A DNA stretch of 62,553 bases, taken from an uncultured Alphaproteobacteria bacterium (GTDB lineage: Bacteria; Pseudomonadota; Alphaproteobacteria; HIMB59). Position 1 is the stretch's first letter; every line of letters begins with the position of its first letter. A program made the position numbers and the translations under genes. Under the pieces are notes generated by a model that saw only the letters and a list, made by a program, of their open reading frames with translations, did no database searches and was not told where the DNA came from. The stretch spans positions 1-62,553 of the forward strand of contig CACBDV010000004.1 in the NCBI GenBank assembly GCA_902538085.1, given 5' to 3'. This document shows, in pieces, positions 7,766 to 13,066 of this stretch.

Positions 7766-8953
7766 GTGAAGCATGATTTTAACAGAATTGATCGTTTACC
7801 TCCCTATATATTTGGAGAGATAAATAAACTTAAAGCAAAACTTAGAAAGAATGGAAAAGATATAATTGATTTTGGTATGGGCAACCCAGATATGCCTACA
7901 CCAAAACACATTAGAGATAAATTAAAAGAAGTAACAGATAAACCTGGAACTGGAAGATATTCTGTAAGTAAAGGAATACCTGGACTAAGAAAAGCTCAAG
8001 CGAAATATTACCAGAAAAGATTTGGTGTAAAATTAAATCCTGATAGTGAAGTTATAGTAACTTTGGGTTCAAAAGAGGGCTTAGCTAACTTAGCTCAAGC
8101 AATATCAACACCTGGAGACATTATTATTTCTCCTAACCCCTCATATCCCATACATCCTTATGGATTTATTATAGCAGGAGCCTCTTTGAGACATTTACAG
8201 ACAATGAAAGATGGAGTTTTTGATCCAGAAACTTATCTTGAAAGATTAGATAGATCTATAAGAAATAGTACTCCATCTCCAGTAGCTTTGATTGTATCAT
8301 TCCCATCTAATCCAACAGCTCAAGTAGTTGACTTAAATTTTTATAAAGAAATAGTAAAGATGGCTTTAAAGTACAATGTTTACGTTTTATCAGATCTTGC
8401 TTATGCTGAGATATACTTTGATAAAAAACCACCTCCCTCAATACTTCAAGTAAATAGAGCAAAAGAAATTGCAGTTGAATTTACATCTATGTCAAAAACT
8501 TATGCTATGGCAGGTTGGAGAATAGGTTTTGCTGTTGGAAATAAAAAACTAATTGAAGCTCTTACAAAAATTAAATCTTACTTAGACTATGGTGCTTACA
8601 CACCAGTGCAAGTTGCAGCAGCAACAGCTCTTAATGGTCCTCAAACCTGTGTTTCAAGTATTCGAGCAACTTATGAGAGTAGAAGAGATGTTTTAGTAGA
8701 GTCTATGTCAAGGTCTGGATGGGACATACCTAGTCCTTCGGCTAGTATGTTTGCATGGGCACCAATCCCTAAAAAGTACAAAAATAAAGGATCTTTAAAA
8801 TTTGCAAAAGATTTAATGGTTAAAGCAAATGTAGCTGTTTCTCCTGGTATTGCTTTTGGCGAATACGGTGAAGGATTTGTTCGGATAGGACTAGTTGAAA
8901 ATGAGCAAAGAATACGACAAGCAGCTAAAAATGTACGTAATCTTAGCCTTTAG
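7766..8953 (+). CDS. class I/II aminotransferase, AlaC-like
   Basis: A 395-residue PLP aminotransferase. It starts with RIDRLPPYIFGEINKLK and IDFGMGNPDMPTP, typical of the group annotated either as LL-diaminopimelate aminotransferase or as alanine aminotransferase AlaC. The cofactor residues are visible: the SFPSNPTAQ Asn, the SDLAYAEI Asp/Tyr, the Schiff-base Lys in SMSKTYAMAGWRIG near residue 240, and the C-terminal Arg in EGFVRIGL. The glutamate-pyruvate (AlaC) role is favoured because alphaproteobacteria normally make diaminopimelate by the succinylase route. That is inference. The start is GTG at 7766; no in-frame ATG is near. Confidence 0.8.
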   Translation: MKHDFNRIDRLPPYIFGEINKLKAKLRKNGKDIIDFGMGNPDMPTPKHIRDKLKEVTDKPGTGRYSVSKGIPGLRKAQAKYYQKRFGVKLNPDSEVIVTLGSKEGLANLAQAISTPGDIIISPNPSYPIHPYGFIIAGASLRHLQTMKDGVFDPETYLERLDRSIRNSTPSPVALIVSFPSNPTAQVVDLNFYKEIVKMALKYNVYVLSDLAYAEIYFDKKPPPSILQVNRAKEIAVEFTSMSKTYAMAGWRIGFAVGNKKLIEALTKIKSYLDYGAYTPVQVAAATALNGPQTCVSSIRATYESRRDVLVESMSRSGWDIPSPSASMFAWAPIPKKYKNKGSLKFAKDLMVKANVAVSPGIAFGEYGEGFVRIGLVENEQRIRQAAKNVRNLSL

Positions 8954-9029: not shown

Positions 9030-10076
9030 ATGATTAACACAAAAAAAATAGGCTCTGTTCTCAAAAACATCAATAATATTGATGAATTGAGCATCTCAGA
9101 TGTAATTGATTGTAATCAAGGTCAATTAATTGCTGTTAAAGTAATTTCAGTCAATCCAAACTATAATAAATTGGAGTTAGTCTCTGGAAGAATTACTGAA
9201 TTAACTGAGGGAGATATTATCGTTGGTGCCTTGGGTAATAGAATTGCCTCCTCAGGAATGACAGGTTCTGTTCCTACTGAATTAAATAAACACGACAAAA
9301 TTCATATTTTAAATTTAGGAGGAGTTATTGGTAATTGTAAAGATTTTAATATTCTTCTAGGACCAGCTACAGAATGTGAAGTCCTTGGATCTATTGTAGA
9401 TAATAGTAACAAACAATTGAATCTAGTAGATTATTCAAAAATCAAAGAAATAAAAATTAACAAAAAAGTACCATCGATCGCAGTCATCGGAACAGGTATT
9501 GACTCTGGTAAAACTACCGTCACATCCTTTATAATCAAAACTCTAAGTAATTATTTTAAGATAATTAATGCATGTAAACTAGCAGGTACCGCTTCACAAA
9601 AAGATTTATATTCTTATGAGGATAATGGTGCTTATAAAACATCAGATTTTGTAGATTACGGTCTGCCGAGTACCTGTATGAATGATAAAAAAACCATACA
9701 AAGTTGTTCAGCATCAATTATTAGCAATATGTCTGAGGACGCTGAGATAATTCTAATGGAATTAGGGGATGGTTATCATGGCGATTATGGAACTAAAGAA
9801 ATAATTCAAAATACTGATATTACAGAGTCAATTGAAGTTATTGTAATTTGCGCTTATGACGTATCGGGAGCAGTAAATATTATAGAAAATTTAAAATCAA
9901 ATAATTTAGATAACAAATTACTGATAATTAGTGGCCCTGTAACTAATAATGTATCTGCTTATAAACAATCAATTGATAAGTTTTCTATACCTAATTCAGA
10001 TTTTTTAAATATTTATAATTCAACTAACCATGTCAATGTTTTTGCTAAGATAATTAATAGGATTAATAATGATTAA
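9030..10076 (+). CDS. uncharacterised P-loop protein (distantly DUF1611-like) heading an argC-argB operon
   Basis: A 348-residue protein with two parts. Residues 1 to about 135 form a conserved N-terminal domain with GDIIVGALGNRIASS and LNLGGVIGN segments. Residues from about 148 form a P-loop domain with the Walker A-like GTGIDSGKTT at about 153-162, then KLAGTASQKD, DFVDYGLPST and LMELGDGYHGDYG. That order resembles the C-terminal ATPase of DUF1611 (GTDCAVGK, ATGQTG, EGQGSL) and of MobB/dethiobiotin synthetase-like proteins. The family has no assigned reaction that I know, apart from the report, from memory, that the DUF1611 member DgcN acetylates glutamate. The stop overlaps argC by 8 bp. 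An acetyl-transfer or activation role in the arginine pathway is a hypothesis from context. Confidence 0.6.
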   Translation: MINTKKIGSVLKNINNIDELSISDVIDCNQGQLIAVKVISVNPNYNKLELVSGRITELTEGDIIVGALGNRIASSGMTGSVPTELNKHDKIHILNLGGVIGNCKDFNILLGPATECEVLGSIVDNSNKQLNLVDYSKIKEIKINKKVPSIAVIGTGIDSGKTTVTSFIIKTLSNYFKIINACKLAGTASQKDLYSYEDNGAYKTSDFVDYGLPSTCMNDKKTIQSCSASIISNMSEDAEIILMELGDGYHGDYGTKEIIQNTDITESIEVIVICAYDVSGAVNIIENLKSNNLDNKLLIISGPVTNNVSAYKQSIDKFSIPNSDFLNIYNSTNHVNVFAKIINRINND

Positions 10077-11061
10077 AGTAGGCATAATTGGAGCAAATGG
10101 TTATTTAGGTGTTGAGTTAATACGAATTCTCTCTGTACATCCCGAAGTAAAATTATCAAAAATTTTTCAAAGAGAAATGGAAATAGATGAGGAATTTCCA
10201 CATTTACAGTCGTTGAATTTAAAAGAATTACAGACATCTAATCTTGATGATTTTAAAAATCTTGATTGTGTTTTTTTATCATTACCTCATGGTTCAGCCC
10301 ATGAATATGTCAAAGAATTATTATCAAAAGTTAAAATCATAGACCTAAGTTCAGATTTTAGAATTTCTAATCAAGAGGATTATAACAAATATTACAAATC
10401 AAATTTTGATGCTGACATTCAAAGTAAGTTTCAATACGGATTTATTGAAAATTCAATCGATGACATAAAAAAATCTTCTAACATATCCAATCCTGGTTGC
10501 TTTGCACTAACGGCTCAACTATCTTTATTACCATTTCAATCTATAATAAAAAAAGTATCTATTACTGCTATTACTGGATCAAGTGGTGGTGGTAAAAATC
10601 CTTCTTTGAAAAATCATCATTCTACAAGATCTAAAGATATTTTTTCATACAACATAAATTCGCATCGACATTTAGCAGAAATTTATCAATCTTTTCCAAA
10701 TTTAAAGGAGGCTCTATCATTTGTTCCAATGTCAGGACCTTTCTCTAGAGGTATATATCTTACAAGTCACATAGAAATAAATGAAGATTCAACTTATGAG
10801 TCCTTAAATTCCATTTTAATTGATTGTTTTAAATCATCTCCTTTCATTAGAGTACAAGATAATACTAAGCTTTCTAACGTAGTAGGTTCAAATTATTGTG
10901 ATATTTCAATGTCTTATAAAGATGAGAGACACTTCGTTGTAGAGGCTTGTTTAGATAACTTAGTTAAAGGTGCCTCAGGTAACGCTATTGAGTGTATGAA
11001 TATAATCTTTGATCTTGATCAAACTTTGGGATTAAAACAAATGATACCTTTATATCTATAA
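10069..11061 (+). CDS. argC: N-acetyl-gamma-glutamyl-phosphate reductase-like (ArgC/LysY family)
   Basis: A 330-residue reductase. The N-terminal Rossmann motif GIIGANGYLGVELIRIL binds NADPH. The catalytic Cys is in SNPGCFALT near residue 144, and the His of the active site is in NINSHRHLAEI. Members reduce acylglutamyl (or LysW-carrier aminoacyl) phosphate to the semialdehyde. The loop SSGGGKNPSLKNHHSTRS is unlike the short loop of E. coli ArgC and recalls the ArgC/LysY branch used by carrier-protein pathways and Bacteroidetes. No LysW-like carrier gene is visible here. It is translationally coupled on both sides: 8-bp overlap with the P-loop gene and TAATG with argB. Confidence 0.82.
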   Translation: MIKVGIIGANGYLGVELIRILSVHPEVKLSKIFQREMEIDEEFPHLQSLNLKELQTSNLDDFKNLDCVFLSLPHGSAHEYVKELLSKVKIIDLSSDFRISNQEDYNKYYKSNFDADIQSKFQYGFIENSIDDIKKSSNISNPGCFALTAQLSLLPFQSIIKKVSITAITGSSGGGKNPSLKNHHSTRSKDIFSYNINSHRHLAEIYQSFPNLKEALSFVPMSGPFSRGIYLTSHIEINEDSTYESLNSILIDCFKSSPFIRVQDNTKLSNVVGSNYCDISMSYKDERHFVVEACLDNLVKGASGNAIECMNIIFDLDQTLGLKQMIPLYL

Positions 11062-11909
11062 TGAAAAATCAAAGTTTTTACCAATCGATATTACAAAATT
11101 CCATTCTTGTCATAAAAGTAAGTGGTAAGATTTGTGATAACCAAGATAATATCGATAATGTTATAAGCGACATAAAAGAATTGTTGAATTCTATTTCGAA
11201 GTTAAAAGTTGTTTTAGTTTTTGGATTTGGACGACAGCTAGATAACTATATGATCAATGTACATGGTATTGAGCCAAAAAAAATAAATGGTAGAAGAGTA
11301 ACATCTCCTACAGACATAGAGGCAGCCAAAAAAATATCCGGTCAAATTTTAATAGATATTTTTAGCTTGAGTTCACGATATAATATCAGAAACTTTCCAA
11401 TTCCTATTTCAAAGAAAGACTTTATTGCAGCAAAAAGGAGAGATGTAGTTGATGACATTGATTATGGTCAAGTAGGGGACGTCGTTTCAGTTGATGCTTT
11501 ACAAATTAAAAACCTATTTAAAGAACATGATATGATAATTATGCCAAGCCTAGTTTTAGATAAAAACACATCTGAAGTATTAAATGTTAATGCTGACACC
11601 ATAGCTACTGAATTAGCAATAAACCTCTCAGCCAGTAAGTTAATTTTTATCTCTGATGTCCCTTTTATCAAAGATACACAAGGAGAAAGAATTTCTGCTG
11701 TTGATGAAAATGTGGCAAGAAAACTATTTGATGAGAAAATCATTTCTAATGGGATGATTGTAAAAGTCGAGAACTCATTAAAAGCTCTAAATCAAGGTGT
11801 TCAAAAAATTCATATTATAAGTGGCGAAATAAAAAATGCTCTTATAAATGAGTTAGAGACAGAAGAGGGTATTGGTACTGTATTTCAAAAACAATCTTTA
11901 GATTATTGA
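11061..11909 (+). CDS. argB: acetylglutamate kinase-like (amino-acid kinase family)
   Basis: A 282-residue amino-acid kinase family protein. The C-terminal half is typical of ArgB: LNVNADTIATELA, KLIFISDVPFIKD, NGMIVKVENSLKAL, and ELETEEGIGTVF. The N-terminal phosphate loops deviate. The usual KxGGxxM reads VIKVSGKI, and the usual HGGGPxI reads VFGFGRQL, so the Gly-Gly pairs are broken. NGRRVTSPTD keeps the substrate Arg. It probably phosphorylates N-acetylglutamate or a related acyl amino acid, but the altered loops leave room for another substrate. It overlaps argC by one base and ends 2 bp from the convergent argD. Confidence 0.78.
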   Translation: MKNQSFYQSILQNSILVIKVSGKICDNQDNIDNVISDIKELLNSISKLKVVLVFGFGRQLDNYMINVHGIEPKKINGRRVTSPTDIEAAKKISGQILIDIFSLSSRYNIRNFPIPISKKDFIAAKRRDVVDDIDYGQVGDVVSVDALQIKNLFKEHDMIIMPSLVLDKNTSEVLNVNADTIATELAINLSASKLIFISDVPFIKDTQGERISAVDENVARKLFDEKIISNGMIVKVENSLKALNQGVQKIHIISGEIKNALINELETEEGIGTVFQKQSLDY

Positions 11910-11911
11910 AA

Positions 11912-13066
11912 TTACAACGATTGAGTTATTATCTTTATTGCCTTTCTTATTTCTCCACTTGAAACAATTAAAGGTGGTGTAAGACGGATTATGTTTCCTT
12001 GTATTAGAGTTGAAATAAGGCCGTTTTTTGACATTTTTTCATATGTTTTTAATGCGATTTGATTATTTTTAAACTCAACACCAGCCATAAGACCCAAACA
12101 TCTTGTATCAACTATTTTATCTTTATGTAGATGGTGCATTTTCTTAATTAGACTAGATAGTAAATTACCATTAATCAGTACTTTATTTAAAAAACTTTTA
12201 GTATTTATAGTTTTAAATACATTATATGAAACTCTTGTTTGAAGCATACCACCTCCAAAAGTTGAGCCATGAAAACCAGTAGAAATAATTTTGGATATAT
12301 ATTTTTTTACTATTGTAGCACCTATGGGGATGCCTGAACCTAGGCCTTTTGCAGAGGTTATGATATCTGGATTGACACCGTAATGTTTGTAAGCAAATAT
12401 TTTACCAGTTCGACCTATACCACCTTGTATTTCATCCCCAATAAGTAAAATTTTCTTATTTTTACATATCCCTTTTATAGCTTTTGCAAAATTCTTACTA
12501 CAAATATTTATACCTCCGTCTCCCTGAACAAATTCAATTATGATTGCTACCGTTTTTTTATTTACTAATTTTTTAAGATGAGAGACATCATTAAACTTGC
12601 AAAATTTTACTTTCCCAGGAACAGGACCAATATTCGATTTATATTTTTTATTACTACCGACGGATAAAGCCCCAATTGTTCTCCCATGAAAAGAGGAGGT
12701 CATTGCTATAATCTCATCTTTACCATTTTTACTACCGTAATTTCTCGCAATTTTTAGAGCAGCCTCAATACTCTCGGCACCAGAGTTAGAAAAGAATACA
12801 TCCCCTTTATTGGAATTATCAGATAGTAACTTAGATAATTTAGTTTTAAATTCATGTATTTGTGATCCTGACAGATGAGTAATTCCTGTTTTAAGTTGAG
12901 TTTTAAGGCTATTTTTAATTACTGGATGATTATATCCAAGAGAATTTACAGCAACCCCTGCTGAGAAATCTAATAATTTTCTTTTATCAGAGGTGTATAA
13001 ATAACATCCATTACCCTTTACCACTCTAAAATTACTAAATTTGTATGTTTTTAATAAATTATTCAT
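11912..13066 (-). CDS. argD: acetylornithine aminotransferase (class III)
   Basis: A 384-residue class III aminotransferase. Visible are LLDFSAGVAVNSLGYNHP, the FFSNSGAESIEAALK phosphate-binding segment, SSFHGRTIGALSVG, GDEIQGGIGRTG with the cofactor Asp, and TSAKGLGSGIPIG with the Schiff-base Lys near residue 240. Length and spacing fit ArgD/AstC. It converts N-acetylglutamate semialdehyde to N-acetylornithine, the step after ArgC, and lies tail to tail with the ArgB-like gene. It follows lysR on the minus strand by 45 bp. It is Lys-rich and AT-biased like its neighbours. Confidence 0.87.
   Translation of the reverse strand: MNNLLKTYKFSNFRVVKGNGCYLYTSDKRKLLDFSAGVAVNSLGYNHPVIKNSLKTQLKTGITHLSGSQIHEFKTKLSKLLSDNSNKGDVFFSNSGAESIEAALKIARNYGSKNGKDEIIAMTSSFHGRTIGALSVGSNKKYKSNIGPVPGKVKFCKFNDVSHLKKLVNKKTVAIIIEFVQGDGGINICSKNFAKAIKGICKNKKILLIGDEIQGGIGRTGKIFAYKHYGVNPDIITSAKGLGSGIPIGATIVKKYISKIISTGFHGSTFGGGMLQTRVSYNVFKTINTKSFLNKVLINGNLLSSLIKKMHHLHKDKIVDTRCLGLMAGVEFKNNQIALKTYEKMSKNGLISTLIQGNIIRLTPPLIVSSGEIRKAIKIITQSL

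Follow-up and report, generated by a model that had tools for sequence, protein, structure and literature searches.

The window analyzed here is a 62,553-nucleotide stretch from an uncultured alphaproteobacterium of the HIMB59 lineage; it carries a P-loop protein gene directly upstream of argC and an argB-like gene, and this P-loop protein is probably an N-acylglutamate synthase of neither the GNAT nor the ArgJ type, and thus the first enzyme of arginine synthesis. We infer the reaction from the gene order, the absence of ArgJ and full-length ArgA by the models used, the predicted fold class and a set of invariant motifs; the role is proposed because the P-loop gene sits where ArgJ and ArgA are missing, in arg operons of several phyla. 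The protein would acylate L-glutamate at its amino nitrogen, replacing ArgJ and the GNAT-type synthases; ArgB would then phosphorylate the N-acylglutamate, ArgC would reduce the phosphorylated compound, and ArgD would transaminate the product to N-acylornithine. The reaction itself is a known one, probably carried out by an unrecognized protein family; no published description of an arg-linked P-loop family was found in the literature searched.

Linkage to Arginine Genes

A search of 100 genomes, among them that of the window, found the P-loop gene in 42, all of them members of the window's genus (42 of 52 same-genus genomes vs. none of 48 in the order's other family; 8 of 10 same-genus genomes that are at least 90% complete); within the genus, protein identity drops to 62%. 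Same-genus loci, one per genome, were examined for 36 of the 41 other carriers, and argC adjoins the P-loop gene in all 36 (genomes and loci are labeled G and L, respectively). An argB gene was seen in 33 of them; L016 and L030 stop at a contig edge, and L027 has a shortened argC followed by argD. All seven longer loci include argD, with an extra gene between argB and argD in L050 and L052. The P-loop copy of G038 is broken by in-frame stops (L054, G038:C1:694500-705500), probably a sequencing or assembly error since the neighboring argC, argB and argD are fragmented as well.

At the class level, 15 of 289 genomes had a match, three of these in the window's genus (own included); G334, a member of another family, shows the order P-loop gene-argC-argB-argD-argF, with a P-loop protein identity of 37% and an argF product over the ornithine carbamoyltransferase (OTCase) cut-off. 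A phylum-level profile matched 5 of 397 genomes, own included, among them G610 with argR-P-loop gene-argC-argB. A scan of GTDB contigs, using an alignment of five arg-linked proteins as query, recovered 230 relatives, of which the best 80 were analyzed (L081 among them and L055 of G334 are one region). These derive from Alphaproteobacteria (Micavibrio-type), Gammaproteobacteria (including the isolate Peristeroidobacter agariperforans, L132), Acidobacteriota, Spirochaetota and Myxococcota, together with a Deltaproteobacteria-titled contig and one Peregrinibacteria contig. In tblastn searches with arg references, argC was present in 77 of the 80 loci, argB and argD in 73 each, argF in 68, argG in 66, argH in 53 and argR in 51; wherever argC was present it lay directly 3' of the P-loop gene on the same strand (77/77). 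The order argR-argG-[P-loop]-argC-argD-argF-argB-argH recurs in 41 loci, with gammaproteobacterial or unspecified proteobacterial titles. The three loci without argC are L103 and L114, which are contig ends, and the Peregrinibacteria locus L105. Because argC stands beside the gene in 36 of 36 same-genus and 77 of 80 multi-phylum loci, the linkage exceeds chance, and the argC-argB neighborhood that the earlier note had asked about proves recurrent. Since argF, argG, argH and argR occur in the same operons, arginine is the product; the earlier note's alternative, another substrate for the same pathway, holds only in the sense that the acyl group may be succinyl.

The tree is compatible with the arg type having arisen once. 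The G610 protein is nested inside a gammaproteobacterial group (L078:5089-8739) and the argF and argH genes of this genome lie on another contig, which suggests that the argR-P-loop-argC-argB set was acquired by transfer. The gene of the Peregrinibacteria contig (L105:6494-7546) is an arg-type P-loop gene, 53% identical to a Micavibrio-type protein; the locus represents either a transfer or a misbinned contig.

Search for Known First-Step Enzymes

ArgJ (PF01960) was not found in the window's genome (a 1.25 Mb assembly, 86% complete), in any of 12 same-genus genomes (own included), in G334, or in any of 42 genomes that carry an arg-type P-loop gene elsewhere (G749 in this set is G334 again). 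As a control, the model matched in 10 of 14 genomes, and ArgJ is present in three of three genomes of the order's other family, which lack the P-loop gene. Full-length ArgA (TIGR01890 over cut-off) was detected in none of 33 genomes; 32 of them gave a match of some kind, mainly over the kinase half, and the matching gene is at least frequently argB itself. In the 1.4 Mb, 99% complete, single-contig genome G029, PF00583 finds two GNATs, of which one is RimI-like, below cut-off, and the other has no NCBIfam match. ArgH was over cut-off in 14 of 14 genomes, and G000 and G029 each have an ordinary OTCase that scores somewhat under its model cut-off; therefore, the downstream arginine pathway is present. 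By the models used, which cover part of the N-acetylglutamate synthase (NAGS) types, the P-loop protein takes the first step, otherwise vacant, alongside ArgB, ArgC and ArgD. It shares this proposed pathway position with ArgJ and with ArgA and other GNAT-type NAGS, but it belongs to neither family; its Pfam matches include neither PF01960 nor any GNAT family. The earlier note had proposed that arginine synthesis may begin here with a non-canonical step, and had named as evidence against this idea an argJ or argA gene elsewhere in the genome combined with a lack of recurrent linkage; by the models used, neither was encountered.

Several observations weigh against this assignment. Two same-genus genomes that are more than 90% complete, G016 and G050, have no P-loop match and no ArgJ, yet ArgH is present. 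The best 80 of the 230 relatives were ranked by similarity to the query, and because the query itself is arg-linked, the sample leans to the arg-linked type; even so, L105 has no arg gene within 15 kb. The completeness of the 42 genomes searched for ArgJ elsewhere was not stated. Weak GNAT-only matches to TIGR01890 (20.5-37.6 bits) occur in 7 of the 33 genomes; since only one of 14 control genomes exceeded the cut-off of this model, its absence speaks for classical ArgA only. The GNAT searches comprised TIGR01890 and PF00583, a part of the known NAGS and GNAT synthase types. Finally, no deacylase gene was found in the arg operons of the best 80 loci; with the deacylation gene also missing, the P-loop protein could act at that step, and an unrecognized GNAT could perform the first one.

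Predicted Fold and Relatives of the P-Loop Protein

The P-loop gene (9030..10076, + strand) encodes 348 amino acids, and its AlphaFold2 model (predicted local distance difference test [pLDDT] 90.3, predicted template modeling score [pTM] 0.88) combines a predicted all-beta N-terminal domain without a convincing PDB match (residues ~1-141; 9030..9452, +) with a predicted SIMIBI-type P-loop domain of the dethiobiotin synthetase/CTP synthase/DgcN type (residues ~142-348; 9456..10073, +). Both motifs that the earlier note had quoted are present: the Walker A motif GTGIDSGKTT starts at residue 154, and LMELGDGYHG accompanies it, with ELGDG at residues 244-248. All 61 arg-type sequences share G154, G160, K161, T162, K183, G186, D192, G200, F207, D209, G211, E244, D247 and G248, and in the N-terminal domain Y45, E49, R71, G97 and G98 (N95 in 60 of 61); in a profile search, K183 and G186 line up with the dethiobiotin synthetase K-TG motif. 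Glutamate may bind between the beta domain, with its invariant R71 and Y45, and the P-loop domain, which would bind either ATP, activating a carboxylate as in dethiobiotin synthetase, or an acyl-coenzyme A (acyl-CoA).

Family models hardly recognize the protein: in Pfam it gave only a sub-threshold match to AAA_26 (23.7 bits, cut-off 27), and it had no NCBIfam match at E <= 0.001; the three family members scanned all lacked one. Its description as DUF1611-like is weakly supported. DUF1611_C (PF07755) gave matches at E <= 0.01 in 18 of the 46 family members, a weak similarity (best 2.7e-5), and the P-loop domain may be distantly related to DUF1611; yet the window protein has no DUF1611 match even at E 10, and profile-profile comparison of the family with DUF1611 by hhalign gave a probability of 2.7%. 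The Rossmann-like DUF1611_N (PF17396) was matched at E <= 0.01 by none of the 46 members and by two of two DUF1611 controls at 1e-23 or better; because of this result and the predicted all-beta structure, the N-terminal domain falls outside DUF1611. The idea of a non-canonical first step therefore stands, and is well supported, because of its context, the arg linkage in several phyla and the lack of ArgJ and full ArgA by the models used, and not because of a DUF1611 resemblance.

DgcN (PF07755 and PF17396), a D-glutamate N-acetyltransferase (PDB entry 7xrj), resembles the arg-type protein in the predicted fold class of its C-terminal P-loop domain, and both have been proposed for glutamate N-acylation; they differ in the N-terminal domain (Rossmann-like DUF1611_N vs. 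predicted all-beta) and in the arg operon context of the latter. The gene neighboring dgcN is dgcA, which encodes an enolase-superfamily epimerase; no dgcA neighbor was seen at the window locus, and an enolase-like open reading frame (ORF), identified by eye, is present at both L162 and L167, the DUF1611 control loci. The predicted C-terminal domain is also close to dethiobiotin synthetase (BioD) and to the synthetase domain of CTP synthase, from which the arg-type protein differs by its extra beta domain, its lack of an NCBIfam match and its arginine context; no BioD model matched, and profile searches against BioD chains in the PDB gave E-values of only 0.015-0.22.

Nature of the Acyl Group

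According to PMC4581275, Glu92, Asn185 and Lys302 mark N-acetylornithine carbamoyltransferases, and the N-succinylornithine type has A/S/P/V/Q, P and V/I/E at these positions. Among the 68 operon carbamoyltransferases, 66 were long enough for alignment; 18 of Micavibrio-type are ordinary OTCases by alignment, and 48 are of the acylornithine type. The latter have P at position 185 throughout (48/48), A, S or V at position 92 in 47 (T in one, L129), and V or I (29) or A (19) at position 302; the N-succinylornithine signature is thus complete in 28 and present at two positions in 20, and the acetyl-type combination E92/N185/K302 occurs in none of the 48. This resemblance makes succinyl the probable acyl group of the operons from Gammaproteobacteria, Acidobacteriota and Spirochaetota. 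Against this, an NCBIfam model names the carbamoyltransferases of L132 and L106 as N-acetylornithine type, over cut-off, although this model may not separate the two types; succinyl may be called a good, not a certain, reading.

The OTCase of the alphaproteobacteria is silent on the acyl group. All the alphaproteobacterial genomes typed (G000, G017, G029, G334 and G754) share one M20 enzyme, DapE, a desuccinylase, which is present in all six genomes whose M20 proteins were typed; as the shared M20 enzyme of the three same-genus genomes searched (G000, G017 and G029), it would fit a succinyl group in the window's lineage. DapE is the only M20 match in G017; G029 has one further M20 hydrolase, an allantoate-type amidohydrolase, and G000 has DapE, an allantoate-type protein and an ArgE/DapE-family protein (L187) just under its subfamily cut-off (212.2 vs. 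217.6). An M20D amidohydrolase also lies near the operon of G334. No acetylornithine deacetylase model was over cut-off among the M20 proteins typed. More tentatively, we suggest that a new family, combining a beta domain without known relatives and a BioD-like P-loop domain, might make N-succinylglutamate in Alphaproteobacteria, Gammaproteobacteria, Acidobacteriota, Spirochaetota and Myxococcota, and that DapE might double as desuccinylase in streamlined marine Alphaproteobacteria.

A succinylated arginine pathway has been described in Bacteroidetes (PMC7311316), and the carbamoyltransferases of the gammaproteobacterial, acidobacterial and spirochaete operons share its N-succinylornithine-type residues. 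There, the first step is ascribed to BT3761, which is more than 50% identical to the N-acetylglutamate synthase Cabys_1732 (PMC7311316); here, the candidate is the P-loop protein, in other phyla.

Alternative Functions

Two variants of the proposed synthase differ in the acyl donor. An acetyl-CoA:L-glutamate N-acetyltransferase, a distant DgcN relative feeding the usual acetylated pathway, is a narrower and doubtful version, given the low hhalign probability, the absence of DUF1611_N from all 46 members with positive controls, the carbamoyltransferases without a single E92/N185/K302 combination, and the lack of an acetylornithine deacetylase over cut-off among the M20 proteins typed. To a similar degree possible but doubtful is an ATP-dependent, dethiobiotin synthetase-like ligase that would join a free carboxylic acid such as succinate or acetate to glutamate without CoA-dependent transfer; the alignment of Walker A and K-TG with BioD, the closeness of the C-terminal domain to BioD and CTP synthase, and the invariant K161, K183 and E244 argue for this enzyme, but DgcN, titled an N-acetyltransferase, has the same fold class, and the E-values to BioD are marginal.

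Functions outside the first step appear less probable. A deacylase or other pathway helper, combined with an unrecognized GNAT that makes N-acylglutamate, would account for the missing deacylase gene and for the weak GNAT-only TIGR01890 matches, but amide hydrolysis does not need a P-loop, DapE is available in six of six genomes typed, and G029 has only its two PF00583 GNATs; we regard this as quite unlikely. A regulator or kinase acting on ArgB or ArgC, in a cell that imports ornithine or acylglutamate, is very improbable: the P-loop fold class does include maturation GTPases such as HypB, but argR already resides in 51 of the 80 loci, the motifs are invariant in all 61 sequences, and such a protein would have had to accompany the loss of ArgJ and ArgA in several phyla. 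The same invariant, active-site-like motifs disfavor the regulator of N-acetylglutamate that the earlier note had considered.

Arginine synthesis varies most between lineages at its committed step, and annotation by models would either show a hole there for the bacteria in question or class them as arginine auxotrophs. If the P-loop protein is an N-acylglutamate synthase, a non-homologous enzyme would fill this hole for the streamlined Alphaproteobacteria of the window, for Micavibrio relatives, and for many Gammaproteobacteria and Acidobacteriota; a P-loop family without NCBIfam match (three members scanned) would gain a function, and succinylated arginine synthesis could extend beyond the Bacteroidetes.

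The Window Locus

In the window (29.1% G+C), the P-loop gene is flanked by genes for an aminotransferase, ArgC, ArgB, ArgD and a LysR protein. The ORFs confirm the overlaps reported in the earlier note, 8 bp between the P-loop gene and argC and 1 bp between argC and argB, all on the + strand. The argC gene (10069..11061, +; 330 aa) encodes an N-acyl-gamma-glutamyl-phosphate reductase (NCBIfam TIGR01850, 300.4 bits, cut-off 233.6). The argB-like gene (11061..11909, +; 282 aa) encodes an amino acid kinase (PF00696), the putative N-acylglutamate kinase, with 131.2 bits to TIGR00761, below the cut-off of 151.3. Its highest score, 138.3 bits, is against PRK05279 (cut-off 344) and covers the ArgA kinase part (profile positions 18-294 of 441); the protein is slightly nearer to this part than to the ArgB model. 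ArgA models match it in their kinase part only, and no GNAT domain was found with Pfam or NCBIfam. It scored 67.7 bits against the LysW-glutamate kinase model NF010662 (cut-off 194) and does not belong to this type; lysW and argX genes were not searched for. Downstream and convergent with argB follows argD (11912..13066, -), an acylornithine aminotransferase gene (PF00202; TIGR00707, 382.6 bits, below the subfamily cut-off of 410). The aminotransferase directly upstream of the P-loop gene (7766-8953) scores 669 bits against PRK09148, a model for LL-diaminopimelate aminotransferase (cut-off 648), in a genome that also encodes DapE.

Paralogues

More distant relatives occupy 17 loci (15 plus those of G639 and G594) in which tblastn found no argC, argB, argF, argG or argH; an argD-like gene in L079 is the sole arg match. 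Some paralogues adjoin an M20 peptidase gene (L061:6330-8704, L080:6133-8341) or an Asparaginase_2 gene (L066:3043-5021, typed; L067:5325-7316, by eye), hinting that the superfamily handles amino acid amide bonds. Another group is coupled to an ABC exporter (L060:6499-10930, L068:2763-7194, L065:6118-10338, L058:4317-7332 and L079:8295-10968); Pfam typed L060, including a histidine kinase, and the ABC part of L079, and the others were assigned by eye. The G639 paralogue (L079:1395-6826) lies near arginine succinyltransferase (ast)-like genes, recognized by eye as AstB- and AstD-like.
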